64,000 nucleotides of DNA. Origin: Zanthoxylum bungeanum (taxonomy: Eukaryota; Streptophyta; Magnoliopsida; Sapindales; Rutaceae). Every line of letters starts with the position of its first letter. Position 1 is the first letter of the stretch. Made by a program: the position numbers and the translations under genes. A model generated the notes under the pieces. The model worked only from the letters and a program-made list of their open reading frames with translations. It was not told the origin of the DNA and ran no database searches. Below are positions 8,089 through 62,755 of this stretch, piece by piece. The stretch lies in assembly GCA_019454045.1 (NCBI GenBank), contig SKCR01006527.1, positions 248,001-312,000 of the forward strand, in the 5' to 3' direction.

Positions 8089-8658
8089 TCATTCATGTCC
8101 ATGAAGAGAAGCCATTGAAACAACTCCAAGTTTTTGCAGATTGAGCTTCACAACAGTGTCCACAAACATCTTTGTATCTTCCCCAGTATTGCCTTCTGGT
8201 ATATCAACTATATATGACTCTAAAACAAGAGTGTAAATTTGGCCACAACCCTTTTGAAATTCATTAACAGATGTGACAGATCGATAATTATTAAGCCTAT
8301 GCTCACCTCCCACAACTCTAAAGCTCAAAATATGCTTCTCATCATCCAAAATATCTAATGTTTCAGTACTTGTTGAAGCTGGAAGCCCAGAAACGACAGT
8401 CACTTCTCTTATGCTGCCTACGCCGCCATCGCCTTGCATGTTGCAGCTCTTGATGAAGTGTTTGTACTTCTGGGGATTGTCGAATCTTCGAACAAATGGC
8501 CACACAACATGAACTGGAGCATCAATCCGTTGCTTTATTAGTGAAGTGCATGTGTTTGGTTTTGTATCAAACTTGTGGTAACTGTCGATTATTGGCTTCA
8601 GCTCCGCGTATTCTTCGGGTGTCAGGCCTTGAGGCGGGGCTTGGTTGGCGGCGTCCAT
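8089..8658 (-). CDS. PYL2: PYR/PYL/RCAR abscisic acid receptor, PYL2-like
   Basis: This is a single-exon 189-residue START-like (Bet v 1 fold) cytosolic/nuclear ABA receptor. It binds ABA and then inhibits clade-A PP2C phosphatases, releasing SnRK2 kinases. The hallmark residues are all visible: the ABA-carboxylate lysine K66 in YKHF, gate loop SGLPA (90-94), latch HRL (120-122), and ligand or phosphatase contacts R84, E99, Y125, S127, E147, F165 and N173. The VVGGEHRL block, the CTSLI-x-QRI start and the ending DTVVKLNLQKLGV match PYL2 more closely than PYR1 or the PYL4-6 group. The start was chosen at the first Met (8658), which gives the normal family length. The protein looks intact. Assignment to PYL2 rather than another subfamily III member comes from memory of the family. 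Confidence 0.95.
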   Translation of the reverse strand: MDAANQAPPQGLTPEEYAELKPIIDSYHKFDTKPNTCTSLIKQRIDAPVHVVWPFVRRFDNPQKYKHFIKSCNMQGDGGVGSIREVTVVSGLPASTSTETLDILDDEKHILSFRVVGGEHRLNNYRSVTSVNEFQKGCGQIYTLVLESYIVDIPEGNTGEDTKMFVDTVVKLNLQKLGVVSMASLHGHE

Positions 8659-9626
8659 GGGGATGGGGGCTCGATCTGCGGTGGCACACGTATATCAAAC
8701 TAAATTACCAAAAGCATGCAAGAGAAAGAGAAGAAGAGAAAGTGTTGAGAAGTTCTTTTTTTGGGCTTGGGAGGGTAATATTTTAAAGGGTATCATTTTT
8801 TAATATATATTTATTTATTTCCATCTTTGGGTTGGGTAGACTAAAGATAATTTCTCTATTTTTAAAAAAGAAAATTTTGTCAGTACCGGTTTTGTCCTTT
8901 TGTTTAAGAGAGTGATATTTGTTCTTAATTGAAGGAATTATGTTGTGGCCACTGGCCATACATATGACTAGATTGGGAAAGGTTTTTGTCTCTTTATGTT
9001 TAGGATTTTATCTGTTTGATAAAGGCAACCTTTCAAACTTCAAAACAATTAGTTAGTTAATTTAATCATTAATTTTATATTATACTACTTAATGGACAGA
9101 GATTCTCATTCCTCATTGGACATTAAAGACATTGTAATTTACTAATTTTAGTAACTTCGGGAAACAACAAATTATATATTTTAAGAACCCAATTGAAACA
9201 AAGCATTAGATGAGATTCGGAATTAGTCAAATTAGATTGGATATTATGAGGGGGCATAATTGGAAATGTAAGAAAAGATTAGGGGTAAAATGGGAACAGA
9301 GAAGATAGTCGCCATGGTTGGAAAGGGCAAGCTGGAGAGTCGTGGATCATGTGAGAAGTCTAACAAACTCGCGTGATCTGTAACTCCACTTTGCAGGATT
9401 CCCCCACTCTCTAGGCCCCACGTTCTCTTTCAAATTTTTTTTTTTTAAATAATAATAAATTTTTTTTTATTTTGCCAACGAATTTTAAAAATGAAAATAA
9501 AAAAATACTCGATACAATACATAAATTTATGTAAATAAAATAGTTAGCTGTTGTGGTCAATATTACACTTTAATTCTAATAATAGTATGCAGCAGAATCA
9601 GTCCATCAATTTCCTTTAGATTTATC
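8659..9626 (-). promoter_or_regulatory. PYL2 upstream region
   Basis: This is the roughly 970 bp upstream of the minus-strand PYL2 start, ending at the LINE insertion. A weak TATA-like AT stretch (tatatatta on the minus strand) lies near 8801-8810, about 145 bp from the ATG. I see no other gene. The LINE therefore sits about 1 kb upstream of PYL2. Confidence 0.3.
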
Positions 9627-10145: not shown

Positions 10146-10763
10146 CTATAGACCTCCTATGGCTCTCAAAGTTTTTTCATGTTCTGCCGATAATCTACTA
10201 CTATCAACCAAAATTTTTGCCCTATGAACCACTCTTTTAGGAAACTCTTGCTTATGCTCAAAGAGATAGTAATTTCGCGCTTGCCACACTGCCCAACAAA
10301 TCGCCACTAGCAACTCATGGCCCTTTCCATCTCCATGTATATCCATGTTGTGAAGCACACTAAGCGCATCTCGGCTTGGGGATTTCTTGATAGTTTCTTC
10401 AAAGGGGGTAAGTCGCCAAACTTTCTTTGCAAACTTACACTCAAAAAGCACATGGGATACCGTCTTAACCTGATCATTGCACAACATGCATCTCTGTTCC
10501 TCCACAACCTTTCTCTTCCACAAATTAAGAGTTGTTGGCAGTAGGTTTTGAGCAGCCCTCCATATAAAGATCTTTACCTTGGCTGGCAAAAGACTGGCCC
10601 AAATCAAACTCCAATAGTTCCTCACTTCACAACTACTGGTTGAAGCTTGATTTTTGCTTCTATACGCAATCTGATAACCACTTCTAACTGAATATCTCTC
10701 TCTCTTGTCATAATGCCACACTACCTGATCTTCTTGAGCCCTATTTGGCAACCGGATCTTCAA
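10146..10763 (-). pseudogene. LINE ORF2 fragment: zf-RVT domain
   Basis: This open stretch of 205 codons shows the plant LINE zf-RVT signature. YSVRSGYQIA is followed by a W-x-LIW-x-x-LLPAKVKIFIWRA-type core, then a CMLCN...SHVLFECKFAKKVW zinc-binding segment. It is followed by AVWQARN and a K-rich tail. The upstream reverse transcriptase and endonuclease parts are absent because of 5' truncation. It is not a host gene. Confidence 0.9.
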
Positions 10764-10820
10764 GATTTATGCTGCATCTATCTCTCGGAAGCACTGCTTC
10801 ACTAACACCTCATTCCATCG

Positions 10821-14531: not shown

Positions 14532-16400
14532 TGATAAGCGGTAAATATATCAGTATTTACCGTCCATTTTACTTAATATTTTGTATAGTTTCTTGAGTTA
14601 TGTGAATATTTTGATGTGTTTTGTATATTTTATAGATAAATAAGGTTTCAGGACTCACTGGAATCAAATCAGGGCCAAAACAACAAAAAACAGAGCAAAA
14701 ATGTAAAATTGTCATTTCTACGTCGCGACGCGCAACACTGCTGCATCGCGACCACTAACATGTGTCAGACAAGTGTCAACATCAGAGAAACTTGCTATCA
14801 TACGCACTCGCTAATGTGCGCCGGACACGTGTCAACATCACAATAATTTTGCTAACATGCGTCGGACACGTGTCATCATCCTATGTTGCTGATACTACAC
14901 ATCATTGCTGATTTCAGCGTAGCGATACGCACAACTTCATGAGTCGCGATGCCGAGCCAATAACTCAGTCTGCCGACAGCAACGTGCCACGTGTCATCAT
15001 CTCAACAGAGTGCGTGCCACATGTCGAAGATCAATGGCACATCGCGACGCGTAAGGTTGAACGTGTCGCGACTCGAGGGACAATAATTTCCTATAAATTG
15101 AGGCCGAAATCAGAATTCCAATTCATATCTTCTTCTGGGGATTTTCTTAAGAATACTAAGAAGATTGTATCTTGTTTGTTTATTTACAGTTTTTTATATT
15201 TAATTTTTATTTACGCAATAGTTCTTTATTTATTTTACTTTTCAGTCTTTATTTTACTTTTCATTATGAGGAGGTAACTCCCCTCTGCTGTAGTGAATGG
15301 TAAAGCTTTATTACTAATATTTAGATAAATCTCCATTAATTTTAATATATAAACTATTTTAAAATCTGACTTAATGGGATCCCGCCTTTATGGTCGGTTG
15401 GACTTAATTAAATTGATTTTAACCTGACTAAATTGGATACTGCCTTTATGGTCGGTTGGAATTAATCATAAATTTGACTTAATCAAGATACCGCCTATAT
15501 GGTCGGTTGGTAATGTCATGCAAAGTTTATATATTATAATAATGGAGATATCTAAATTAGTAGTAATAAAAGTGGATCCTCTAACCCCAATATTTTCTTT
15601 TATTGTTAATTTATGTATTTAATTTTCAGATTTTACTTTATATCATTTACTTTATTTATGTCTTTATTATTCTTATATATATGTGGTATCTAAACCCCGT
15701 ATCTAGGGTTGTGATGAATTCCAATATCACCGGTTTATAAGTGATAATTTTATGTTTTGGGTAATATAAATGTTTATTTATTGAGCCTTAGTCTTAATTC
15801 TTCTTGTTAACTGGCCATTAATAAGATTGATTTGGTAAACTTAAAATGAAATTGGAAAAAAGATTTTAGGTTTCAGTCTTAAACTCAATAGCTCACGATA
15901 TCACTTAAAGATAGATAACCCTTAATAGATTTCCTTACATGATAGGAATATACATGTCGGGTGGAGGTAGCCATAATTGGAACTTAATCTTAATGAATTC
16001 AGATAACTTGGTTAACATAAAAATAAGATTAATTGGGTTATACTGGGTATTTGCATCTGACCATCGGAATAGGCTTTTGCATGATTTCGTGTTCCAAGTT
16101 AATAAACTAATATATTGCACAAACATGAGATAATCACTTCATTTTTAAAAGATATTGGAATGATTCACAACTATAAATAGTTTCTTAATATTGATTTTTC
16201 CTTTAATTTACTTTCACACTGTTTTATTTACTTGTTTTCAGACAAAAATCACCATCCAATCAACAATCAATCTATTATATACTTATAATATTTAACGTCA
16301 TAAATTAATAGCTAATGTATTAAGTCTTCGTGGGATCGATACATTTTATACTACTTGAACGATACGTGCGCTTGCATTACGTGAGTGATTTCACCGATCA
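14532..16400 (+). repeat. Solo LTR related to the LOG-carrying element
   Basis: The 1869-bp LTR starts TGATAAGCGGTAAAT and ends caccgatca, matching the start and end of the LTR at 60556-62755. It has the same internal order: tcgcgacgc motifs, a TATAAATT box (15092-15099), the gaggaggtaac phrase, and ccgcc...ggttgg tandem repeats (about 15390-15515). Flanks are agtga (14527-14531) and agtgc (16401-16405), a near-perfect 5-bp duplication. No internal sequence accompanies it, so it is a solo LTR, clearly older than the full element. Confidence 0.85.
15092..15099 (+). promoter_or_regulatory. TATA-like box in solo LTR
   Basis: TATAAATT at the position of TATAAATA in the two LTRs of the LOG-carrying element. 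Confidence 0.45.
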
Positions 16401-33589: not shown

Positions 33590-35525
33590 CGCATTTGCGT
33601 TTCCATACCCAGAGTGTCGCAGAGTGCCATACCCGACATGTTAAACCTCGTACTCGAGGCGTCGCGGTTGCGTCTCCATACCCAGAGTGTCGTAGTAGTG
33701 TCTCCATACCGGAGTGCCATACCCGGCGTCCTGATAATGTCTGTCTCCCTACCCGGAGTGCCATACCCGGCATGCTGATAATATCTGTCTCCATACCCGG
33801 AGTGCCATACCCGGCATTTTGATAATGTATGTCTCCATACCCGGAGTGCCATACCCGGCGTGCTGATAATGTCTGTCTCTATACCCGGAGTGCCATACCC
33901 GGCATGCTGATAATGTCTGTCTCCCTACCCGGAGTGCCATACCTGAAATGCTAATAATGTATATCTCCATACCTGGAGTGCCATACCCGGCGTGCTGATA
34001 ATGTGTCGCCTCAAGCCTGAGACTCATCCCCAAAATCGATACTGATGTGGGCCTCGCCCCCAGATTGATACTAATGTGGGCTTCACCCCAGACTGATACT
34101 GATGTGATAGTTCATTCCCGAACCCTGCTCCATTCTCGTAGTGCCATTCCCGGCTTGTTCATTCCCGAACCTTGCTTCATTCTCGGAGTGCCATTCCTGG
34201 CTTGTTCATTCCCGAACCTTGCTCCATTCTCGGAGTGCCATTCTCGGCTTGTTCACTCCCGAACCTTGCCCCATTCTCGGAGTGTCATTCCCGGCTTGTT
34301 CATTCCCGAACCGTGCTCCATTCTCGGAGTTCCATTCTCGGCTTGTTCATTCTCGAACCTTACTCCATTCTCGGAGTGCCATTCCCGGCTCTCTGATGAT
34401 GTGTGGGCCTCAACCCTGGACTCATCCCAAAAACTGATATTGATGTGGGCCTCGACCCTGGGACGCATCCCCAAAACTGACACTGATGATGTGTGGGCCT
34501 CAACCCTGAACTGATACTGATGTGGGCCTCGCCCACAAACTGATACTGATGTGGTCCTCGCCCTGGAACTCATCCCCAAAACTGATACTGACGTGGGCCT
34601 CAACCCTGGGACTCATCCCCAAAACTGATACTGATGTGGGCCTCGACCCATGCTCCATCCTCAAACTGATACTGATGTGGGTCTCTCCCCAAACTGATAC
34701 TGATGTAGGCCTCGCCCCCATATTGATACTGATGTGGGTCTCGCCCCCACACCGATACTGATGTGGGCCTCGCCCCCAGCTAATATTGATGTGGGTCTCG
34801 CCCCAAACTGATACTGATGTGGGCCTCGCCCCCAAACTGATACTGATGTGGGCCTCGCCACCGGGACTCATCCCCAAAATTGATACTGACACTGATGTGG
34901 GCCTCGACCCAGGGATTCATTCCCGGGTTCATTCCAAAATTCCGATGATGTGGGCCTCGACGCTAGGATTCATTCCAAAATTCTGACGATGTGGTCCTCG
35001 ACCTTGGGATTCATTCCAAAATTCCGACGATGTGGTCCTCGACCTTGGGATTCATTCCAAAACTCTGATGATGTGGGCCTCGACCTTGGGATTCATTCCA
35101 AAATTCTGACGATGCGGGCCTCGACCCTGGGATTCATTCCAAAATTCTGACGATGTGGTCCTCGACCTTGGGATTCATTCCCGGATTCATTCCAAAACTC
35201 TGAGGATGTGGGCCTCGACCCTGGGATTCATTCCAAAATTCTGACGATGCGGGCCTCGACCTTGGGATTCATTCCAAAATTTTGACGATGTGGTCCTCGA
35301 CCCTAGGATTTATTCCCGGATTCATTCCTAAATTCTAACGATGTGGTCCTCGACATTGGGATTCATTCCCGGATTCATTCCAAAACTCTGATGATGTGGG
35401 CCTCGACCCTGGGATTCATTCTCGGATTCATTCCAAAACTCTGACGATGTGGGCCTCGACCCTGTGATTCATTCCCCAAACTGCTGATAGTGTGGGCCTC
35501 GACCCTGAGATTCATTCCCGAAACT
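33590..35525. repeat. Composite minisatellite array, four related sub-arrays
   Basis: There are four successive periodicities. About 33600-34030 has 44-bp units (ccggagtgccatacccggc core). About 34110-34395 has 47-bp units (ctcggagtgccattcccgg core). About 34396-34930 has units near 29 bp (gatactgatgtgggcctcg core). About 34931-35525 has units near 41 bp, sometimes about 60 bp (gatgtgggcctcgaccctgg core). Neighbouring sub-arrays share words, so they look derived from one another. The long ORFs read through here on both strands are by-products of periodicity. Confidence 0.9.
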
Positions 35526-37548
35526 GATGATGCTATGTTGTTGTTTCTGGTTGGCTTGCATTTGCCGCTTTCTCATTTTCTTTAAAATCTTTGAACAAAA
35601 ACAAGACAAAGATTGTGTGTATATGACGTGTATGCATTTATGCATGAATGTGTTTCCTATTCCGATGGGTTAGGTCTTCCTTGTGCTCTTCGGTGCTTCT
35701 TGCCTACAAAAGTCTTTGGTCGCCCCCTGGGTCTGCCTGCAATTCCCTTTTGTCAGTTCTCTTCTGGTGATTGGTTGGTTCTCTTTTGTCTCATGGCTCA
35801 AGATCTCGTTGTTTCCCTTATTTGCGGGGTGGTAGACTGGTCGCCCCCAGTCTTGATTTAGCTTTCTGCTCACCGCTGCTTGCATTAGGTCAAGGTGGAC
35901 CACATGATATGACATTCTATATCATCATATTATGTCACATGCTACGAAAAAGTCCAAATAGTTACACATATTATTGCCCTCAAAGAATGCCCAGTATTGA
36001 AACCAAAGAACCTTCAAATCATTCAACGCAACTCAAATCCAAGTCTTTGAATAAATGATCTAAGACAGACTCAAAGTGTGTGTGCGCAAAGGTTCTTTTG
36101 CAGATTCATCCCTAGATAAGCCAACTCAATGATTTTGTCAAAAAAATGGGATCGATGGGTCAAACCAACCTAGATGTCTCAATTATGCATGCAGTTGCTT
36201 TTCTGTGCTCAATGTGGTATGATTTTCTTTCTCTTTTGTCTCTTTATTTTTTCTTTTCATTTTGAACTTCTTTTTCTTATTATTTTTTCTTTCTTTCTCT
36301 TTTTTTCAACACACCTACCCTTTAAGGTAGCATTTCTCCTCATGGTGGTCTTAATACTCGCCCATGGGTAGCTTCACGCTTATTGGTTATATGTGGTTCA
36401 ATTCTTTTCTTTAGAGACTTTTGTTTTATTTTCAACCATTCCACACATCATAACACAAGCAAATCAGGATAGACATTTAGGCGAACGGTCATTCACCGAC
36501 CTACAATTTCTTCAACTAGGCACTTTGCTTACTACTCAGGTTTTCACTGCTAAGAACCTATAGTGAAGTGCTTACGAGTCTAACATAGATCAATCACTCA
36601 AAGTATCAGTTAAAAGCACATCAAGAGTTTATCGTTTCTAGGATTTCACCCTAAAGCAATCAATTTCATCATTGGACTTATGCCTACTATTAAGGACTAA
36701 AAAACAAAACAAAAAATTTCTCTTTTTTTTTTCCTCTTTTTTTCTTTTTTTTTTCCTTTTTTTTTTTTCCTTTTTTTTCTTTTTTTTTCTCTCCCTTTTT
36801 TGGGGCCCACCGTGGTCTTTCTATCATTGCCGTACAGTTTTATGTTCCTCGGTTTCCTTTTCCCGATATCCATGTTTGCTAAATTCTTTTTGACAAACCT
36901 TTTTTTTTCTTCTCTAACCCAACAGATATCTATGATGGCTTTTAAGACACAGAGGTTAACATCATGCGTGTATGCATGAGATGCGTGCGATGTATGAGAT
37001 ATAATATGCATGTGGTTATCAAAAGCATAAATGGTGGCTTCTATAGGTCATATAACTACGGTTCACATGCGGGTTTACAGAGGTATAGACAAAGGCTCTC
37101 GCCGGCGAAGGATTGCCCACAACTAGGACTCCCCACTCAAGGGTTCGAGCGACCAAGTGAGCGCACCTTTTTTATACCTTAAGGTACGTGCCAACGAGTT
37201 ATGGTGCATGATTGACTGTCAAATGGATTTCCTATTAAAGATTCCTCAGATGGAGGGTGGAGCGAACTCTCTTAAATACCCAAGCCTCTTAGGCTCTTAT
37301 CGCCTTGGTGACATGAATAACCAATAGGTCCTCCAAATTAGTCCATCACGGTAAGCTTCGAGCAAATGATTATCTAGGTGCCTTCACAACTTTTCCTTTA
37401 CATAAATGTAGTGAATGAAGGAAGACACCAAACCATTACCTAGCTTTAATAATGCCTTTGATTAAACCCCCTCAACCCACTATAGACGCGGTTAACTAAA
37501 GCACAAATCACAATCACTACAAGACATTATTTCATGGCCGATTCTCTA
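35526..37548 (-). other. Non-coding internal region of the Ogre/Tat-like fragment
   Basis: No domain is recognisable. There is a strong pyrimidine tract on the + strand at about 36718-36800 (polypurine on the minus strand) and a purine/pyrimidine-biased stretch at 36220-36310. No gag motifs were seen. Confidence 0.45.
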
Positions 37549-40088: not shown

Positions 40089-42080
40089 GAAAGAGTATGT
40101 TATTCTTTCACAGTAGACTCCTCCTGAAATACCTCAATTGCGTGGTGTGTCCGAACGGAGAAGCCGAACTTTGTTAGACATGGTAAGGTTAATAAAGAGT
40201 TGCACCGAGCTACCAATTTCCTTCACGGGATACGCATTGAACAATGCAATACTTATTTTGAATAAGGTTTCGTCAAAGTCTGTTGGACAGACTCAATATT
40301 AAATATGGACAGGAAAGAAACCAGGTTTCTCATTCCTGATGATTTGGGAATGTTGGGCATATAATTAAACATTTGGATGGTACCAAACTAGAATCCAAAT
40401 TGGATAACTGCCTATTTGTAATAGGTTATCCTAGGGAAACCAAATGATATTACCTCTACAACCCAAAAAAGAACAAGATATTTATTGCTCTCCATGCGGT
40501 TTTCCTTAGAGGAATTCCTAAATGCAGTGGTAAGTGGCATGAAGGTAGAACTCAATGAAAATCAGAGTGATACTGTTATTGGCACCGATTCCTTAACGGA
40601 ACACGAACAGTTTATCAGGGATGAGACTGTACCACAATCTTCTAATACATAAGAACCGCGTAGGTCGGAGAGAGTCAGAAAAAAACCTGAGAGGTATGGG
40701 TTTCTGATCTCACCTCATGTAGATATTAATCTTATTGAGGAAGATGAACTAACTACGTATGATGAAGCGATACAAGGAATCGACTCCGCTTTATGGAAAA
40801 GTGCCAGGAAGTTCGAAATGGATTCCATGTATATCAACTGAGTTTGGATACTGGTTGAGGCACCAGAAGGCATTGTGCCTATTGGTGATAAATGGGTCTT
40901 CATGGTGAAGAAAAACATGGATGGGAACATAAAAACGTACAAAGCTAGGCTTGTAGCGAAAGGGTATCATCATCAACATGGTGTCGATTACGACAAAACC
41001 TTTTACCCATTGCCATGATTAAATCCATTCGGATAATGCTTGCTATTGCTACATATTTCATTTATGAAATATGGCAAATGGATGTCAAAACCATTTTCCT
41101 TAACGAAATTTTTTTGGAGGATGTTTACAACATCTTGACGGTTTTGTCGTGCTGAAACATGCAAACAAGGTTTGCAAGTTAAATTGATCCATTTATGGAT
41201 TAAAGCAAGCATTGCGTTCTTGGAACCAACATTTTGATGAGATCATAATGGTATATGATTTCATTCAAAACAAAGATGATTCTTGTGTATATATGAAGGT
41301 TAGTGGGAGCGCACTGACATTGATTGTCATATACATTGATGATGTATTGCTTCTTAGCAATAACATTCCCATATTACAATCGGTGAAAGCTTGGCTTTCA
41401 TTAAAATTCTCCATGAAAAACTTGGGAGAGACAATATTTATTCTAGGAATAAAGATCTACTGGGATAGATCTAAAAGTTGTTGGCACTCTCCGAGAACTC
41501 GTACATTGAAAAACATGTACACGACCTGGTGTCTCATATGCTTTGAGTATATGGAGTCACAATAAGGCCGATCCATGTGATGGTCACTGGATTGATATAA
41601 AGAACATCTTTGAGTATCTTAGACGAACTAAGGATGCTTTCTTAATCTATGGAGAAAGAGAACTTGAGGTAATTGGGTTCACCGTTGCAAGTTTCCGAAC
41701 CGATGAAGACGACTTTGAGTCATAATCAGGGTACATATTTTGTTTGAACAACGAAACAGTGAGCTGGAAATCTTCCAAGCAAGATACTGCTGCCAATTCA
41801 ACAACAAAAGCGGAATATATTGTTGCGGATGAGGTAGCAAGAGAAGCATTTTGGATCTATAAAATTCCTAATTAGATTAGGAGTAGTTCTGTTAGCAGCT
41901 GAGCGGGGCTACAACACAGGCTAAAGAATTACGGTCTCATCAACGATCCAAATATGTACTTCGACAGTTTTATCTGATTCGTGAGATCATAAATCGTGAT
42001 GATGTGATGATTGAATAAATCACATCAGATAATAACCTTGTAAATCCACTGACGAAAGCGATATCTCAGCATAAGCATGA
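40089..42080 (+). pseudogene. Copia integrase C-terminus, reverse transcriptase and RNase H
   Basis: Frames change often, but the Copia order is clear. TPPEIPQLRGVSERRSRTLLDMV begins near 40120. RRSERVRKKPERYGF is near 40660-40700. EMDSMY and GDKWVFMVKKNMDG, then YKARLVAKGYHHQHGVDY, lie near 40810-40990. The RT catalytic YIDD is at 41332-41343. LSLKFSMKNLGE and the RNase H piece SWKSSKQDTAANSTTKAEYI (about 41765-41820) follow. At least eight stops or shifts; dead. Confidence 0.9.
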
Positions 42081-48672: not shown

Positions 48673-49872
48673 TCATGTTACACTAATAGCTCCGATCAGA
48701 AGATCACGCATACATAATTTCCTTTGATCCAACGGCGTCGGAGCTGCCAGTGAAAGCTCCAAATCAGGTGGTGGTGCACTTGCAGCTCTCAGAATTTTTA
48801 AATTTAAAGAAGCTGCAGTCTGAAAGTTGAACCATTTAGGCATTGAATTGTTGTAAGTCGAAGCCAAATCAGAATCACATATTTTGTTTCCATTACTTGG
48901 GGTATTAGCCTTTGTTGCCTTCAATACAAACCCACTAAGATTTGAAGGCTCACTCGGCTTAATTTGATGATGAAGAAGCAATTTATTTGAGAATTTATTA
49001 TCCCTTCCCACCTGCTATATATATATATATATATATATAACAAGTTAGAAAAAGATTAATGTTAGATAAATTTGCTTCACTAAAAAGCTTAAATAATAAT
49101 ACAAAAAGACGAGGCGGTATCATTATTATAATTACATCAAAGATACTGGGGCGGCGTTTTCTTTTGATGTGGCATTTCTGTCTGAGAAAATATTTTTGTG
49201 CATGACTAGCTACTTGTGTTGGAGTTCTTGTGGTAACAAAATTCTTGGAGATGCCTCTCCAGTCACCCTTGCCTAGCTTTTCTAGTCCTATTAGAAACAC
49301 CTTGTGCTCCTCTTCAGTCCATGGCACTCCTGAAAATTCACCAATCATTATTAAAAAAAGGAAAACGATTAATTTAGTCCCAATGTAGAGAAAAGAACAT
49401 CTAGATCCATAAGGTTTGTTCTAGCTAATATATATATATATATATATAAATACCCTCTTATTGTTCCAGAAATAGTCATATAATCTCTTTAAATTTGTTT
49501 AAAAAAATGATCAGTATGTGTAACCATTACTGAAAATGACCATTTCCCCAAATTATACTAACCCTTTTTGTGGGATTGGGCAGGTGAAATGAGGCCATCA
49601 GAGATATAACCATTGGAGACTTTATGGGTGAGACAAGTTGATGAAGAAGGTGAAGAAGATGATGATGATGATACTGGAAAGCAATCTGTGCTAAGACTCT
49701 TTGTCAGTGGCAGCAGAGAAGATGAATTTGAAGATAAAGCAAGCCGTACACCAAAAAGCTTAAGCCCTCCTCCTTCAAGAGAAGTAGTGCTTCTGCTTTT
49801 CAGATTATTTTGAAAGCTGCAGGTTCTTGAATTGTGGCCTGTGTTTCCACAATGTGAGCATTTCCTGCCCAT
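48673..49872 (-). CDS. SHAQKYF-type MYB-related repressor (KUA1/MYBS3-like), 3 exons
   Basis: Exons on the minus strand are 49872-49563, 49329-49136 and 49011-48673. The introns are GT-AG, and the product is 280 aa. In order it has an N-terminal zinc knuckle C5-x2-C8-x4-H13-x4-C18 ([18 protein letters not shown]), a KLFGVRL motif (38-44), and a serine-rich linker. A single MYB-like repeat starts VPWTEEEH (105-112) and contains SHAQKYF (145-151). The C-terminal EAR-type motif LELSL (252-256) predicts transcriptional repression. Family members are nuclear factors binding TATCC/I-box elements in sugar, ABA or leaf-growth responses. I chose the ATG at 49872 to give the conserved MGRK start; another in-frame ATG at 49878 is possible. 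A TA microsatellite fills the start of intron 2's 3' side (49017-49038). Confidence 0.92.
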
Positions 49873-49967
49873 TCTCATCAATATAACACAAACACAAAAA
49901 CAACTTATTCTGCAGAAACCAACCACTGAATAATAATAATAATAGCGAATGGGATTATTGTTAGTTG

Positions 49968-49975
49968 TTTATATA
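49968..49975 (-). promoter_or_regulatory. Candidate TATA box of the MYB gene
   Basis: The minus strand reads TATATAAA about 96-103 bp upstream of the ATG, a plausible distance for a short 5' UTR. Confidence 0.5.
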
Positions 49976-54883: not shown

Positions 54884-55122
54884 GCCACGTCAGCATCAAT
54901 CATTGACTCTCTTATACCTATCTGACACGTGGCGGATAAGAATCTGAATCAGCCAATCACAAGCCGCCACATGTCACAATAATTGAGCCCCAACCACCTT
55001 GCCACGTGTCACCTTATCACCTTATCCAGAATCTGCAGCCGACGAACCAGAGCGTGCCACGTCGACAAAACGGACGTCGCGACGCGAGCTGGGCATCGCG
55101 ACGCGCGACCCTTACTAACGCC

Positions 55123-55130
55123 TATAAATA
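55123..55130 (+). promoter_or_regulatory. TATA box of left LTR
   Basis: TATAAATA, conserved at 61346-61353 in the right LTR and nearly so in the solo LTR. This is the probable promoter for the element RNA covering the gag-like and LOG reading frames. Confidence 0.65.
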
Positions 55131-55433
55131 GAGCGCGAAATTCCAGTTTCAGTTGTACCATTCTCTCTCACTTCTTTGATGTAAAGAGGGAGTTTATCTC
55201 TCTAGTTTCTTTTAGTTTTTAGTTTTTAGTTTTGTAAATAATTTTAATTACGTTTTGTAATAATAGTAATTTACTTTCTTACTTTTTACAATTTTTACTA
55301 TTCACCATGAGGAGGTAACTTCCCCAGCTAGGGTGAAAGGTAATTCTTTTACTGTTATTATTTAGATTAATCTCCCTTAAAAATAATATATTCACTATTT
55401 AAAATATTGACTTAAAAAGGATACCGCCAGATT

Positions 55434-55615
55434 GGTCGGTTGGTAATTCATTTTAATCTGGTTTAAACCTGACTAATCAAGGATACCGCCAGATTGGTCG
55501 GTTGGTAATTAAATTTTCTTACCGCCTATATGGCAGGTTTATTTTGGTTCCGCCTTTATGGCTGGTTGGACTTAATTTGACTTAATCAGGTTACCGCCTA
55601 TATGGTTGGTTGGTA
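55434..55615 (+). repeat. ccgcc...ggttgg tandem units in LTR
   Basis: About five loose units each join (a)ccgcc, an 8-10 bp spacer with atat or agattgg, and ggttgg. The same array is at 61640-61830 and, diverged, in the solo LTR at about 15390-15515. It lies downstream of the TATA box and so within the transcribed LTR. Confidence 0.6.
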
Positions 55616-56538
55616 AAATAATCACAAGTTAATATATTATATTAAGGGAGATATCTAAATAGTAAATAGTAAAAGTTGGTCATTTTACCTTAGCATTTTA
55701 TTTTATTTTACTTTTCAGCTTTTACTTTATGTATTTTACTTTTCAGCATTTTTACTTTATGTCTTTTACTTTTAAGTTTTTACTAGCCCTAGTTATGTGT
55801 TAGTTATATGGGGTTGTGATGAATTCTAATATAACCGGTTTATAAGGGGTTATTTTATAGTTTGGGTAATTTAAAGGTTTACTTATTAAGTCTTAAACTT
55901 AATGCTTCTTGTTGTCTGATCACCAATAAGATTGATGTGGTAAATCTAAAATGAACTAGACATATGGATTTTAGGTTTCAGCCTTAGACTTAATAGCCCA
56001 CGATCTTCCTTGAGGATAAATAACTCTTTAATAGATTTCCTTACATGATAGACATATACCTGTCGGGCGGGGGTATCCATAATTGGAACTTAAACTTAAT
56101 GAATCCAGATAATTTGGTTGACATAGACATATGGTTCAATTGGGTTAAACTGGGTATTTGCGTCTGACCATCGACAGAGGCTTTCGCATAATTTCGTGTT
56201 CCAGGTTAGTAAACCGATTTATTACACAAACATAAAATAATCACTTCATCTTTTAAAAGATATTAGAAAGATTCACAACCTAGATCTTTGTGTCTTTTGT
56301 TAGTTTCCTTAGTATTTTCTTTTGTCTTTTTATTTATTTATTTATTTAGCAAATCTACAATCAACCAAATCAATCAAACAATCATTCTCTTCTCCATTTA
56401 ATTAGATATTTGTAAATAAATAGATTCAACAATTAATAACAGTAGGAATTAAGTCCTTGTGGGATCGATATTTTTATACTACTTGAACGATACGTGCGCT
56501 TGCGTTATACGCGTGTGATTACGCACCGGTCAAGTTTT

Positions 56539-56556
56539 TGGCGCCGTTGCCGGGGA
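56539..56556 (+). other. tRNA-Asp primer-binding site
   Basis: TGGCGCCGTTGCCGGGGA matches 18 nt complementary to the 3' end of plant tRNA-Asp. It begins six bases after the LTR. Confidence 0.9.
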
Positions 56557-56668
56557 CTTATTTTTCTTGAGTTATTAATTTTGAAGCTATCTAATTTACT
56601 TGTATATAATTTTCTTTATTTTTATCTGTAATTTTTATTTATTTCTTTTGTTTTCAGGTGATTGAAAA

Positions 56669-57970
56669 ATGGAACATTATTGGGAGATTAAGAGATCACG
56701 AGCTTTAGTAGAAGATATACCCCAAATCTGGGAGCAACAGTCCGATTTTCTGAGGCCTGTTATCCAGCCCAACAATTATCACTGGATGCCAGAACCAAGC
56801 AATACCACATTTGCTCAACAAGACGCAATGATGAGATGTGCCATATGTAATGGTAACCACTCTAGAGATTATTGCGAATACAACTACCATCCAGGGTGGC
56901 AGAGCTATCAAGATCCTTCATGGTATGACGAGCCATCACATTTCACAGAACCACATTTTCCATCTTATCCACCACCCACCTACAATGATCTTCATCAACA
57001 ATCAGAACAATCAGAAGAAGATCAGATGATTGACATGCTCAAAGATGTGTTCAAGAAACGAGATGAAAAGTTGGATACAATGCTTGAAACATTCCAGAAT
57101 CAACTCGAAAGTATTCAGAGACAAACAACATCCATTCAGAGGATGACAGATCAAGTGAGACAATTAACAGAAAACCAGAACTTCATACCTCAAGAAGCAT
57201 TTTTAGATGACACTGATGAAGCCTTCGAGTACCCAGAGATCCACAATGATACCTTAACAGAGGAGGAGGCTGAGCAGTATCAACAACCAGAGGTATCAGT
57301 TCAGGAACCCAAACCAAAAAAGTCTATGTTTAATTTCTATTATTCAGACTCTGACAAGGATGAAGAAGCTGAGCTGTTTTTACCAACTGCACCAACAAAT
57401 GAGGATGAAATTCTGTATCCTCAAAATGAAGATCTTGGAGATTGCTTTGCACTGATGTTTGAAGAAGATCTACCTGAACCATCCATTCCAGTCGTATCAG
57501 AGGATGAATACCTAATGTCAGAAACATATTTACATCCTCAGGCAGATACTTATGGAGCATGCATTTCACAGATAACGGATGAAAAGTTGAATACGGAAAT
57601 TTTAAAATTCATCTGTGAAGAAAAGGTGGAGCAAGAAGCAAAGCAAATGGAGGAGAAAATGTCTGAACTTATTAAAGATCCAGAGCATTCAGAAGAAACA
57701 TCACTGTTTTGGGGAGTACAATTTAGAGATATCACCCGGAAGCTTGATAGAATGGAACTTCCATTCAAGGTCAAGCACCATACGAGACCTCCTGATTTTA
57801 TTTCTTTCTTTTCAGGAACCACTGGAGCAATAAAGGTTAAAAAGGTGGCACAAGCACTGAATGAGACAAAATATTTTTTGCCACTTTACCGTTGGAATAG
57901 ACCCTTCAAAAGCAACGCTCACGGGATTGTCTTTAATCAGACATCCAAAACGACGCTGAAACCTCCTTGA
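56669..57970 (+). CDS. Gag-like protein of non-autonomous retrotransposon
   Basis: An intact 433-codon ORF begins 136 bp after the LTR. Residues 57-69 form a zinc knuckle C-x2-C-x3-H-x4-C (CAICNGNHSRDYC), the spacing seen in Athila/Tat-type Gag. A predicted coiled coil follows at about 115-170 (MLKDVFKKRDEKLDTMLET onward). Then comes a long acidic low-complexity region (about 190-350) and a basic C-terminus (about 370-433). The N-terminal capsid-like part of Gag is missing or unrecognisable. There is no fused protease or polymerase. Just after the stop, ggaggcaaccc (about 58024) is a phrase common in the 3' non-coding part of such Gypsy elements. An open frame this long in an otherwise stop-rich element suggests youth or selection. 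Its exact role is inferred. Confidence 0.75.
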   Translation: MEHYWEIKRSRALVEDIPQIWEQQSDFLRPVIQPNNYHWMPEPSNTTFAQQDAMMRCAICNGNHSRDYCEYNYHPGWQSYQDPSWYDEPSHFTEPHFPSYPPPTYNDLHQQSEQSEEDQMIDMLKDVFKKRDEKLDTMLETFQNQLESIQRQTTSIQRMTDQVRQLTENQNFIPQEAFLDDTDEAFEYPEIHNDTLTEEEAEQYQQPEVSVQEPKPKKSMFNFYYSDSDKDEEAELFLPTAPTNEDEILYPQNEDLGDCFALMFEEDLPEPSIPVVSEDEYLMSETYLHPQADTYGACISQITDEKLNTEILKFICEEKVEQEAKQMEEKMSELIKDPEHSEETSLFWGVQFRDITRKLDRMELPFKVKHHTRPPDFISFFSGTTGAIKVKKVAQALNETKYFLPLYRWNRPFKSNAHGIVFNQTSKTTLKPP

Positions 57971-58502
57971 CATATGGATTTCAGTCACGTCTGGCTGAAG
58001 ATGAAAAATTTAGCGCTATCAGGGAGGCAACCCATGCAATTTTTTGTAATTTCTATTTTTATATTTTGTGTATACATGTTGTAGAGTTTTTAATTTTGTG
58101 TGTTATTTTTGTAGGAAAAAGCACAGACAGAGCATTTTAAGACAGAAGGAATGGTGTTTGGCAATCACAAAGAAGAGAGACAATTCATTATTGATGGCTG
58201 AGTAAAGAATTAATTCTTGAGACGCATCTTTATGAATTTATACTAAGCTAGTGGCGTATTGCGTACACAATTCCATTGCCTTAATTATTGCTTTGATTTG
58301 CTTTTCAGTTGTAATTATCTTTATTTTTGTAGACATGATCCAGATTTTTTGACCTTTCATGATTTGTTTTATTATTTAGCTAAAAATCGTCATTTGGAAT
58401 ATACTAGTGCTATTATTACTCACCCTTTTTCAGGTACTATAAATTTAGCCCGTCATTGCACTTTTGAAGGCATCCGGAGTTGAGAAAGAAATACATATAA
58501 AA

Positions 58503-59154
58503 ATGGAAGCCACTTCAAGAAGACGAGTTGAAAATATCTGCGTGTTTTGCGGTACTAGTGTTGGTACTAAGCCACAATACGTAGAAGCAGCACATGAATT
58601 GGGTCGAGTCTTAGCTGCAAGGAATATGCACTTAGTATATGGCGGAGGCAATCTTGGACTTATGGGGATCATTTCAAAGGCCGTACAAGAAGGAGGCAGT
58701 CATTTTTTGGGAATCATCCCAAAACCCTTGGCACAAGCAAATCTTATTGAACCATCAAACGGAGAGGAACTGATCGTGCCAGGTATGTCTGAACGACTGG
58801 TAGAAATGATTAACCGTGTTGATGCTTTTATTGCTTTGTCAGGTGGCTTGGGCACATTGGAGGAAATTTTTATAGTACTATCTTGGGCGAACCTGAACTT
58901 ACACCAGAAACCGCTTGGACTGTACAACGTTGATGAATTTTATGATTTTATTTGTTTTTCTTGATGATGCCTGAAGAAATGGGTTCGTGTTAAAACCTTT
59001 AAAAGAACTCCTCTTTACTGCCAGAACTGCTCCGGATCTAATAGACCAACTCTTAGCCTATGAACCACAAGTTGACCCTGTCCTTTCAAAGATAAATTTG
59101 TCCGAAGACGATCGCGGTAAGAGGCGTCAGATTAATCTGGATCTTAACATTTAA
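58503..59154 (+). pseudogene. LOG: Captured LONELY GUY-like cytokinin phosphoribohydrolase, frameshifted
   Basis: LOG enzymes hydrolyse cytokinin riboside 5'-monophosphates to free active cytokinin. From ATG 58503 an intact frame of 153 codons (to 58964) shows CVFCGTSVGTKPQY (13-26), the nucleotide-binding VYGGGNLGLMG (45-55), GIIPKPL, the PGMSERLVEM segment with R98, and SGGLGTLEE (113-121). In typical LOGs the last motif is PGGxGTxxE, so Pro is replaced by Ser; and the usual R-K pair is R98-L99. Near 58950 a one-base shift diverts the frame. The family-like C-terminus continues in another frame (FLDDA, one TGA, then GFVLKPLKELL to KRRQINLDLNI) and ends at TAA 59154. Family length is about 210-220 aa. 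No introns are seen, although plant LOG genes usually have several, so capture was probably from mRNA. Confidence 0.85.
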
Positions 59155-59722
59155 TTTCCTGTAGAATTTCGGCTAACCAGGTATTATCTTCTAAACTCTT
59201 CTTTTACTGTTTAAGACATTTGGGACAATGTCTCATTTAGGTTTGGGGGAGGAATTAGTTGATCAGTACCTTATTTTTAGTTTGTGTGTTATTTTTATTT
59301 TTAGTCCTAAATTTTTTGAAAAATACAAAAAAAAAAAATTGAAAAATTTTCAAAAATTACAAAAAAATTTGCGTTTTTGTGTTTTTATTTTTACTAAAAA
59401 TGTGAAATTGGTAAAAGATAGCTGAGTAAGGAGTTTCCACTCCTGAGACGTATCTCAAACCATTTTTTTAAACAAGTTAATTTTTGTTTATTTCATTTTA
59501 AATTATTTAATTTGTGAATTCTCCATAAAATTGACTAAAACGGATTTTCATATACTCAGTTAGCAGATATTATCAACATGCATAGTAACATACAGACATG
59601 AGCTATAATTGAAAAGTTTTTAATATTCAGTGCTCTAATTTAATTGGAGGAAGCATCTCAAAAAGTGATGGAGTAAAATATATATATATATATAATATAT
59701 ATATAATATATATATATAATAT

Positions 59723-59768
<46 letters not shown>

Positions 59769-60542
59769 GTCCGAGTTATTAAGTCTATAAGGGTGTTTTA
59801 ATACCTAGTGCCCTAAAGCCACTGGTTTGGGAGTCACTGGCCCAAAGCTCGCTACATGGATCAAAGATGCTGCAAAAATATATATATCTGAAGTCTGAGT
59901 AATTAAGTCCGTAGGGGTGTCTTAACACCTGGTGCCCTAAAGCCAACTGGGCTGGGAGCCACCGACCCAAAGCTCGCTACATAGACGGAATATATTGTAT
60001 ATAAATAAAATAAAATAAAATAAATCAAAGAAAAAATCAGAAAAATCAGAAAAATTATTCCATTGCTACAAAAATGTGTGAAATCTGATAGAACTTTAGG
60101 ACAAAAATATTACTCTCTTATGAACTGCACTTGTGACTGTTGTGGGCAAAAATGAGTTGTTTAATATTATGTTGGCTGTGTATATGAAGAATGGTAAATA
60201 TAATTGGAGAATGTACTTATTCAGTAATTTAGAAAGAAACAAAACAACTAGTAACTTGGAGTAGAAGTTTTACCTGATTAGTCACTAACTTCTTTATTCT
60301 CTTTTCACTTGTCTTTTTGCTTTTGTGTGCATTAGTTTCACTACCTTTTTATAATTGTAAAATATTTGTGGGTATCATTGCTGTAAACCCTCACGAGACT
60401 ACAACTCATCCACTAGGGACACCTAGGGGTTTAAAGGCTTATTGCATACGCTAAATGCAACCGTGATCCCTACGAAAGTGGCTTAATTAAATTTTATTAT
60501 GCTATTTTATTTTTTGTTTTGCTCGAGGACTAGCAAAATGTT
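59155..60542 (+). other. 3' non-coding internal region with internal PPT-like motif and repeats
   Basis: Right after LOG, 59239-59254 reads taggtttgggggagga, a second copy of the polypurine-tract word. A TA microsatellite fills 59678-59764. A 124-bp direct duplication follows (units from 59766 and 59890), with ccctaaagcca and cccaaagctcgctacat in both. The rest has no gene. Confidence 0.65.
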
Positions 60543-60555
60543 AGGTTTGGGGGTA
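60543..60555 (+). other. Polypurine tract
   Basis: aggtttgggggta lies directly before the right LTR start TGATGAGTGG. Confidence 0.75.
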
Positions 60556-60864
60556 TGATGAGTGGTAAATCTATCACTATTTCCCACTCATTTAACTTAA
60601 TATTTTGTATAAGTTTCTTGAATTTTGTGAATATTTTGATGTGTTTTGTGTTATTTTGTAGATAAATAAAGTTTCAGGACATTCTGGAGGTGATTTGGAG
60701 CAAAATAGTGAAAATTGGAAAAAGGGGAATTTTGGTAATTTTCCGCGTCGCGACGCCAAGACCTTCAGCGTTACGACGCGTAACATGCGCCGAACAGTGC
60801 TAACGTGCGCCGGGTCCACAAATCAGAATCTGAGAAAATTTGACTTTGCTAACGTGCGCCGTGC

Positions 60865-61231
60865 CACGTGTCACCATCACATCGAATCTGCTAACATGCG
60901 CCGTGCCACGTGTCATCATCCTACGGTGCCGACAGTCATCATCGCCACGTGTCACTCCACTTGTCAGCCACGTCATAATCCACATCATCAGTTGACCGAG
61001 TCAACATGCCACCTCACCGCCACGTCATCATCAGCCAATCAGGAAGTGCCACATGTCGCAATTCTATGGTGCCGACAGTCACTTTGCCACGTATCGCCAC
61101 GTCAGCGCCACGTCAGCATCAATCATTGACTCTCTTATACCTATCTGACACGTGGCGGATAAGAATCTGAATCAGCCAATCACGAGCCGCCACGTGTCAC
61201 AATAATTGAGCCCCAACCACCTTGCCACGTG
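60865..61231 (+). promoter_or_regulatory. Cluster of six G-box (CACGTG) motifs in LTR U3
   Basis: CACGTG occurs at 60865, 60907, 60946, 61149, 61191 and 61226, mostly as gccacgtgtca, with further ccacgtca words between. All lie 100-490 bp upstream of the TATA box at 61346. ACGTG cores are recognised by bZIP and bHLH factors, including ABA-responsive ABF/AREB proteins. Confidence 0.7.
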
Positions 61232-61345
61232 TCACCTTATCACCTTATCCAGAATCTACAGCCGACGAACCAGAGCGTGCCACGTCGACAAAACGGACGT
61301 CGCGACGCGAGCTGGGCGTCGCGACGCACGACCCTTACTGACGCC

Positions 61346-61353
61346 TATAAATA
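61346..61353 (+). promoter_or_regulatory. TATA box of right LTR
   Basis: TATAAATA, same context as 55123-55130. In the 3' LTR this could drive transcription into the flanking DNA. Confidence 0.6.
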
Positions 61354-62755
61354 GAGCGCGAAATTCTAGTTTCAGTTGTACCATTCTCTCTCACTTCTTT
61401 GATGTAAAGAGGGAGTTTATCTCTCTAGTTTCTTAGTTTTTAGTTTTAGTTTTGTAAATAATTTTAATTACGTTTTGTAAGATAGTAATTTACTTTCTTA
61501 CTTTTTACAATTTTTACTATTCACCATGAGGAGGTAACTTCCCCAGCTAGGGTGAAAGGTAATTCTTTTACTCTTATTATTTAGATTAATCTCCCTTAAA
61601 AATAATATATTCACTATTTAAAATATTGACTTAAAAAGGATACCGCCAGATTGGTCGGTTGGTAATTCATTTTAATCTGGTTTAAACCTGACTAATCAAG
61701 GATACCGCCAGATTGGTCGGTTGGTAATTAAATTTTCTTACCGCCTATATGGTAGGTTTATTTTGGTTCCGCCTTTATGGCTGGTTAGACTTAATTTGAC
61801 TTAATCAGGTTACCGCCTATATGGTTGGTTGGTAAAATAATCACAAGTTAATATATTATATTAAGGGAGATATCTAAATAGTAAATAGTAAAAGTTGGCC
61901 ATTTTACCTTAGCATTTTATTTTATTTTACTTTTCAGCTTTTACTTTATGTATTTTACTTTTCAGCATTTTTACTTTATGTCTTTTACTTTTAAGTTTTT
62001 ACTAGCCCTAGTTATGTGTTAGTTATCTGGGGTTGTGATGAATTCTAATATAACCGGTTTATAAGGGGTTATTTTATAGTTTGGGTAATTTAAAGGTTTA
62101 CTTATTAAGTCTTAAGCTTAATGCTTCTTGTTGTCTGATCACCAATAAGATTGATGTGGTAAATCTAAAATGAACTAGACATAGAGATTTTAGGTTTCAG
62201 CCTTAGACTTAATAGCCCACGATCTTCCTTGAGGATAGATAACTCTTTAATAGATTTCCTTACATGATAGACATATACCTGTCGGGCGGGGGTATCCATA
62301 ATTGGAACTTAAACTTAATGAATCCAGATAATTTGGTTGACATAGACATATGGTTCAATTGGGTTAAACTGAGTATTTGCGTCTGACCATCGACAGAGGC
62401 TTTCGCATAATTTTGTGTTCCAGGTTAGTAAACCGATTTATTACACAAACATAAAATAATCACTTCATCTTTTAAAAGATATTAGAAAGATTCACAAACC
62501 TAGATCTTTGTGTCTTTTGTTAGTTTCCTTAATATTTTCTTTTGTCTTTTTATTTATTTATTTATTTAGCAAATCTACAATCAACCAAATCAATCAAACA
62601 ATCATTCTCTTCTCCATTTAATTAGATATTTGTAAATAAATAGATTCAACAATTAATAACAACAGTAGGAATTAAGTCCTCGTGGGATCGATATTTTTAT
62701 ACTACTTGAACGATACGTGCGCTTGCATTATATGCGTGTGATTACGCACCGGTCA

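Follow-up and report, generated by a model that had tools for sequence, protein, structure and literature searches.

Does a retrotransposon of Zanthoxylum bungeanum carry a hormone gene that it recently took from its host, or an older reading frame that belongs to the element itself? The question is raised by a 64,000-nucleotide stretch of contig SKCR01006527.1 (GenBank assembly GCA_019454045.1; positions 248,001 to 312,000 of the forward strand), hereafter called the window, in which a long terminal repeat (LTR) retrotransposon encloses a sequence of the LOG family. A first-pass annotation had described a non-autonomous, Gypsy-related element that had picked up the mRNA of a cytokinin-activating host LOG gene and was spreading it under its own promoter. 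We followed up this proposal computationally. The explanation that we favor, with a probability of about 0.64, is a young insertion of a non-autonomous, probably Athila-type Ty3/gypsy element that holds an old LOG-family sequence as an extra 3′ sense open reading frame (ORF), that was mobilized in trans, and in which LOG is now broken.

Structure and age of the element

A blastn self-comparison identified direct repeats at 54884-56532 and 61107-62755, whose alignment of 1,653 columns shows 98.1% identity. The two copies differ by 23 substitutions (20 transitions and 3 transversions) and 10 gap columns, corresponding to a Kimura two-parameter (K2P) distance of 0.0142. A divergence of 1.4% between LTRs points to a young insertion; with a substitution rate between 7e-9 and 1.3e-8 per site per year, the element would have inserted roughly 0.5 to 1.0 million years ago.

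The limits of the LTRs were set with the help of a second sequence in the window, a solo LTR of a sister family at 14532-16400, which aligns with the 3′ LTR from base 1 of the latter (60556). The alignment falls into pieces covering bases 1-377 at 71% identity and 931-2183 at 73%, with a poorly aligned stretch between them, and the terminal bases (ACCGATCA versus ACCGGTCA) agree by eye. Because the solo LTR aligns from 60556, we place the 3′ LTR at 60556-62755 (+ strand; 2,200 bp; TG...CA ends). The 5′ LTR, located at 54884-56532 (+ strand) by the self-comparison and an extent check, is truncated and lacks the first 551 bp of its partner; position 54884 is therefore a truncation edge. We considered 54884/61107 as the true LTR start and rejected it on the basis of the same homology. 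The pair of near-identical LTRs described in the first-pass annotation thus stands, with these limits corrected. The solo LTR is itself flanked by AGTGA and AGTGC, which are alike at 4 of 5 bases.

Between the LTRs lies an interior of 4,023 bp (56533-60555). The 18-base primer-binding site (PBS), TGGCGCCGTTGCCGGGGA (56539-56556, + strand), is located 6 nt 3′ of the 5′ LTR and is the sole exact match to this word in the 64-kb window when both strands are checked. At the other end, the 12-letter polypurine tract TAGGTTTGGGGG (60542-60553, + strand) is followed by TA and then by TGATGAG, the opening bases of the 3′ LTR at 60556; the same polypurine word occurs a second time within the element, at 59238-59249. 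Paired LTRs, PBS, and polypurine tract are all present, the 5′ LTR being short by 551 bp. The PBS and polypurine tract were correctly recognized at the outset, and we take the letters of the PBS to be those of a tRNA-Asp primer site.

In the soybean elements Diaspora and Calypso, of the Athila lineage, a tRNA-Asp PBS follows the LTR at a distance of 5 bp (PMC1142308). They share with the element described here a tRNA-Asp PBS a few bases past a long LTR (5 there, 6 here) as well as TG...CA ends, and by this analogy, together with its letters, the PBS is putatively assigned to the tRNA-Asp type. A tRNA-Asp-type PBS just after a TG...CA LTR fits the Athila clade, a feature that is not exclusive to Athila.

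Homology and disruption of the LOG frame

The frame at 58503-58961 (+ strand) encodes the N-terminal 153 codons of a LOG-family protein. It matched PF03641 with an E value of 3.4e-27 (95.7 bits; cut-off, 27) and TIGR00730 with 142.5 bits (cut-off, 96.35), which excludes one outcome foreseen when the element was first described, a lack of profile similarity to LOG proteins. The NCBIfam equivalog NF058542 gave 96.7 bits, below its cut-off of 300, for a query that is truncated and without a plant LOG as a control. The match to Arabidopsis LOG3 had an E value of 2.7e-44. An AlphaFold model of the frame, made with 28 aligned sequences, had a mean predicted local distance difference test (pLDDT) score of 87.8; its first PDB match by E value was LOG3 (2a33), with a template modeling (TM) score of 0.85, and LOG8 gave a TM score of 0.90 (both scores normalized to query length).

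The frame does not run to completion. A frameshift near 58950 leaves LOG open to 58961 and out of frame thereafter, with a stop at 58962-58964. A C-terminal piece follows in a different frame at 58975-59151 (+ strand; stop codon TAA at 59152-59154), preceded in its own frame by a stop at 58972-58974. This piece matched the C terminus of a LOG profile weakly (6.9 bits; E value of 5.7e-4 in a two-sequence search with filters off), and it had no match in the PDB. The intronless LOG-type reading frame of the first-pass annotation was therefore correct as to homology and incorrect as to continuity, since no single frame stays open throughout 58503-59154. The LOG of this copy is broken and could yield at most a truncated Rossmann domain. 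The whole course of LOG, from the Met start to the LOG-like C-terminal piece, lies inside the element, which makes it unlikely that LOG belongs to a host gene with exons outside.

Over its 153 codons the LOG frame is free of introns. Most LOG genes of peanut, by comparison, consist of 7 exons separated by 6 introns (PMC13257298), and the lack of any interruption here suggests that the sequence passed through an RNA stage.

Substitutions in the proposed prenyl pocket

We compared the element LOG with 83 relatives, consisting of 79 bacterial LOGs, many of them from Pseudomonas, together with four PDB proteins, Arabidopsis LOG3 and LOG8, Pseudomonas aeruginosa LOG (PaLOG), and YvdD. The bacterial loci were the best 80 of at least 583 matches, picked by patterns that included GG.GT.EE, and one of them (L042) was dropped since it lacked an open frame. 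Conservation of the motif letters is thus partly by construction; positions H96, K99, E124, and Q130 lie outside the selection patterns.

Eight residues present in 83/83 relatives are kept in the element LOG: M95, R98, G114, G115, G117, T118, E121, and W128. Those lost are K99, E124, and P113 (each kept in 83/83 relatives), H96 and Q130 (82/83 each), and E80 (79/83); the changes include H96S, K99L, E124I, P113S, and E80N. In the enzyme of Corynebacterium glutamicum (CgLOG), Met96, His97, Lys100, Glu125, and Trp129 form the proposed prenyl site and are identical in LOG3, OsLOG, and CpLOG, a catalytic role is proposed for Arg99 and Glu122, and Lys100 is also placed in the adenine site (PMC4979012). 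Numbering differs by one residue between CgLOG and the element LOG, as derived from the 5its alignment range. With roles assigned as in PMC4979012, the element LOG keeps the catalytic Arg98 and Glu121 and the phosphate loop, and three of the five proposed prenyl-site residues are altered (H96S, K99L, and E124I, with M95 and W128 retained). The PGGxGTxxE motif is preserved as GGxGTxxE, its Pro having become Ser.

Because three residues of the prenyl pocket have changed, this copy probably makes no cytokinin, and the case for a cytokinin role of LOG in the element is weakened by the same changes. The proposal that the element spreads a hormone biosynthesis gene becomes doubtful given the frameshift in this copy and the loss of three of the five proposed pocket residues, the adenine-site Lys among them. 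For each of H96S, K99L, and E124I, a minimum of two base changes is required, against about 3 substitutions expected in the 450 bp of LOG since insertion; P113S takes one C-to-T change and may be recent.

A preserved catalytic center next to an altered pocket could also indicate that the phosphoribohydrolase chemistry has been kept and redirected to a noncytokinin nucleotide, for the benefit of the element. R98, E121, and GGxGT are retained, the three altered prenyl-site residues and Q130 are all near-invariant among the 83 relatives, and the predicted model has the LOG fold. However, the enrichment of losses in the pocket is a post hoc result (hypergeometric P value of 0.024 at conservation cut-offs of 97% and 95%, and 0.084 at 90%), and the element LOG, off consensus at 6 of 36 conserved columns, is not far out of the range of three bacterial rows that depart at up to 4. 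Plain loss of function fits equally well: Lys100 of CgLOG is named as an adenine-site residue, and replacing residues of the adenosine monophosphate (AMP) site with alanine abolishes nearly all activity, except in S19A (PMC4979012). P113S, E80N, and the frameshift likewise suggest decay. We consider such re-purposing a minority possibility. Somewhat less probable is its more specific form, in which a pol-less Athila-type lineage would maintain a LOG with an intact catalytic center and a remodeled base/prenyl pocket that hydrolyzes another nucleotide (e.g., a signaling or precursor nucleotide) to the advantage of the element, and not for cytokinin.

Divergence and probable history of the LOG sequence

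The element LOG is 50% identical to LOG3 (At2g37210) and 46% identical to LOG8 (At5g11950), the two PDB proteins that represent plant LOGs in our comparison. Its identity to P. aeruginosa LOG is 49%, to YvdD 42%, and to the 79 bacterial loci up to 51%; LOG3 and LOG8 are 71% identical to each other. The two Arabidopsis proteins share with the element LOG the fold and the catalytic Arg and Glu, but they are full length and have His, Lys, and Glu at the three prenyl-pocket positions that are altered in the truncated element frame. In a tree of 40 of the 84 rows, made after the bacterial loci were thinned at 75% identity, the element LOG had an end branch of 1.44 and grouped with LOG3, LOG8, and two Chloroflexota LOGs with support of 97/88. 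It fell outside the LOG3-LOG8 pair (99/94), and the nearest row, both by identity and by path, was LOG3.

These values bear on the first proposal, by which the element took up the mRNA of a present-day host LOG on a single occasion and now holds it as a decaying, passive passenger. The intronless frame, the frameshift and stop in LOG, and the single copy seen would all be expected of such a passenger. An identity of just 50 and 46% to LOG3 and LOG8, a position outside their pair, and the long end branch would not; nor would H96S, K99L, and E124I, each at least two base changes away, where about 3 post-insertion substitutions are expected. Recent capture of a host mRNA is therefore not supported, at least against the two plant LOGs compared, and we judge it improbable.

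An old capture, with LOG coding for most of its history, is the simplest reading; the alternative to it is the capture of a gene that was already divergent. That 153 codons are free of stops at about 50% identity suggests long residence as a coding ORF. When the LOG frame was allowed to drift neutrally in simulation to 52% amino acid identity, 5 of 300 runs stayed open, in a model that includes substitutions only, without insertions or deletions, and that places all divergence on the element. Long constraint would hold only if most of the divergence arose inside the element; had a gene that was already divergent been captured, residence could be short. Our leading guess is that LOG is an old extra ORF decaying in this copy.

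Several observations weigh against the history that we favor. The ideas of a family and of selection on LOG are based on a single copy, itself broken, and no profile links ORF1, upstream of LOG, to gag. The plant grouping sits on a long branch, and an approximately unbiased (AU) test neither shows nor rejects a clade of plant LOGs and the element LOG (P value of 0.46). In the neutral-drift simulation, 70 of 300 frames were still open at 80% identity and 138 of 300 at 90%. Finally, a run of 12 A residues follows LOG at 59327-59338, as insertion of a retrogene would also leave.

If the favored history is correct, an intronless LOG transcript would have been joined to element RNA long ago, either by template switching during reverse transcription or by recombination at the RNA level. 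The LOG ORF would then have been kept coding within the element lineage while it drifted to about 50% identity, in the position where Athila elements hold env-like or other extra ORFs. The LTR would act as promoter, and a downstream or spliced RNA would serve as the message for LOG, which has a 3′ splice-like site 69 nt before its ATG. Reverse transcriptase and integrase for movement would be supplied in trans by pol-bearing relatives.

The A run suggests a further possibility, that LOG is a host retrogene placed in the retrotransposon by the machinery of a long interspersed nuclear element (LINE) and not an ORF of the element. The form of LOG is processed and intronless, and the 12-A run, which begins 173 nt past the LOG stop, might be the remnant of a tail. 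On the other hand, no clear target site duplication surrounds LOG (no shared word of at least 10 bases between 59325-59420 and 58100-58502), the copy of the polypurine word at 59238-59249 lies between the LOG stop and the A run, as element sequence would have it, and LOG domains are recurrent in Gypsy consensuses (PMC9289625). A LINE-type retrogene origin is accordingly unlikely, more so than recent capture.

Plasmid records yielded 167 matches, all below 60% identity, and a scan of viral contigs gave 2 pattern matches, neither of them a relative. Horizontal transfer of a bacterial LOG into the element or the plant is very unlikely, for although bacterial LOGs are about as similar as plant ones (up to 51% in the 79 loci and up to 47% among the plasmid matches listed) and GGLGTLEE[IL]F looks like a bacterial form, the nearest row by identity and path is LOG3 and the element LOG groups with plant LOGs at 97/88, albeit with the two Chloroflexota sequences in that group.

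Related systems and significance

Two Athila-like elements with LOGL4-like extra ORFs are reportedly described in the abstract of Steinbauerova 2011 (Genetica 139:1543). LOG/YgdH domains are present in Ty3/gypsy consensuses of Citrus sinensis and Citrus clementina and, under a looser filter, of Populus trichocarpa (Alvarado-Marchena et al. 2022; PMC9289625), a report that cites Steinbauerova et al. 2011 as in line with LOG domains in Gypsy elements. The Citrus and Populus consensuses resemble the present element in that a plant LTR retrotransposon of the Gypsy type holds an additional domain of the LOG family, but those consensuses were found through reverse transcriptase and so come from elements with pol, whereas no pol was found here. 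In the literature consulted, PMC9289625 was the only report found of LOG in retrotransposons. A term scan of the available text of PMC7264820, PMC11963269, and PMC6317226 gave no mention of cytokinin, lonely guy, or lysine decarboxylase; YgdH was not mentioned in the first two or LOG in the first, and the three occurrences of "log" in PMC11963269 were inside other words in the passages shown.

Elements of comparable architecture are known from Arabidopsis, where some Athila families without pol have ORFs for gag, or for gag and env, that evolve under purifying selection, and these families are thought to have moved at least partly in trans (PMC2410132). Like the element described here, those families have LTRs and one or two ORFs and lack pol; their second ORF is env-like, while here it is LOG.

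That LOG occurs in plant Gypsy elements is already known, and the change in the pocket is the point worth following; among the open-access papers listed in our searches, we found no report of pocket changes in retrotransposon LOG domains. The recurrence of LOG domains in plant retrotransposons poses the question of whether mobile elements gain by altering host hormone or nucleotide levels. Three pocket residues that are kept in 82 or 83 of 83 relatives and changed here make this question concretely testable on intact members. If intact members make cytokinin, the elements spread a growth control enzyme; if they make none, the elements may carry a re-purposed nucleosidase.

ORF1, the search for pol, and expression signals

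ORF1 (56669-57970, + strand) encodes an acidic protein of 433 amino acids with a CX2CX3HX4C motif (CAICNGNHSRDYC). This motif and a general resemblance make it a putative gag-like ORF, as it had first been called. The ORF itself was confirmed; the label has no support from profiles, with nothing above the cut-off in Pfam, including the gag and Athila ORF-1 domains, or in NCBIfam. The Athila ORF-1 domain is found in just 16% of Athila elements (PMC6317226). Diaspora differs in having a full gag-pol and a CX2CX4HX4C finger (PMC1142308), in place of the CX2CX3HX4C of ORF1.

In agreement with the first description, a Pfam scan of 12 segments of the element found no pol domain, the listed matches all being below Pfam cut-offs. 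The scan took in 12 of the 67 interior stop-free segments of at least 30 amino acids: ORF1, both parts of LOG (the frame and the C-terminal piece), and nine more, with both strands represented. At 434 and 171 codons, the two longest runs without a stop exceeded the maximum of 147 codons in 500 mononucleotide shuffles of the interior, considered on one strand. Blocks at about 58009-58041 and 59217-59250 appear to resemble conserved stretches 3′ of pol in Athila-type elements; the second block holds the 12-letter polypurine word identical to the tract before the 3′ LTR. With no pol having been found, it is the PBS, along with features that we take to be typical of the group, that links the element to Gypsy; a non-autonomous, Gypsy-related element with an intronless LOG is in this sense supported. 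Two 108-bp direct copies, 84% identical, also lie inside the element at 59754-59985, beside an AT-dinucleotide array.

A TATA-box-like sequence, CTATAAATAGA, is present as an exact match in the 5′ LTR at 55122-55132 (+ strand) and recurs at 61345 in the 3′ LTR; it may act as part of a promoter. Candidate 3′ splice sites precede both reading frames on the + strand. The first, TTTTCAG/G, would make 56658 the first exon base, 11 nt before the ORF1 ATG, and the second, CCTTTTTCAG/G, would make it 58434, 69 nt upstream of the LOG ATG. A scan for pyrimidine-rich CAG/G found 4 such sites in the interior, compared with 9 for the + strand of the full 64-kb window, and splicing at 56658 and 58434 is a prediction from these letters.

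Other sequences in the window

Searches of the window with Rfam (gathering threshold) and ARAGORN found nothing. Several ORFs with recognizable domains lie on the − strand outside the element. The ORF at 8092-8694 has a START-like domain (PF10604; E value of 2.6e-13), and we take it to resemble the PYR/PYL abscisic acid receptors. A single MYB repeat (PF00249; E value of 1.4e-11) is encoded at 49001-49420, and the adjoining ORF at 49561-49968 has a CxxCxxxGHNxRTC knuckle. Remnants of other mobile elements were seen at 10149-10766 (− strand; LINE type, zf-RVT) and 41188-41562 (+ strand; copia type, RVT_2). A cluster of tandem arrays occupies 33699-35531, with periods of 28 to 57 bp and longer ones of up to 148 bp, and several of the arrays share words such as GATGTGGGCCTCGACCC.

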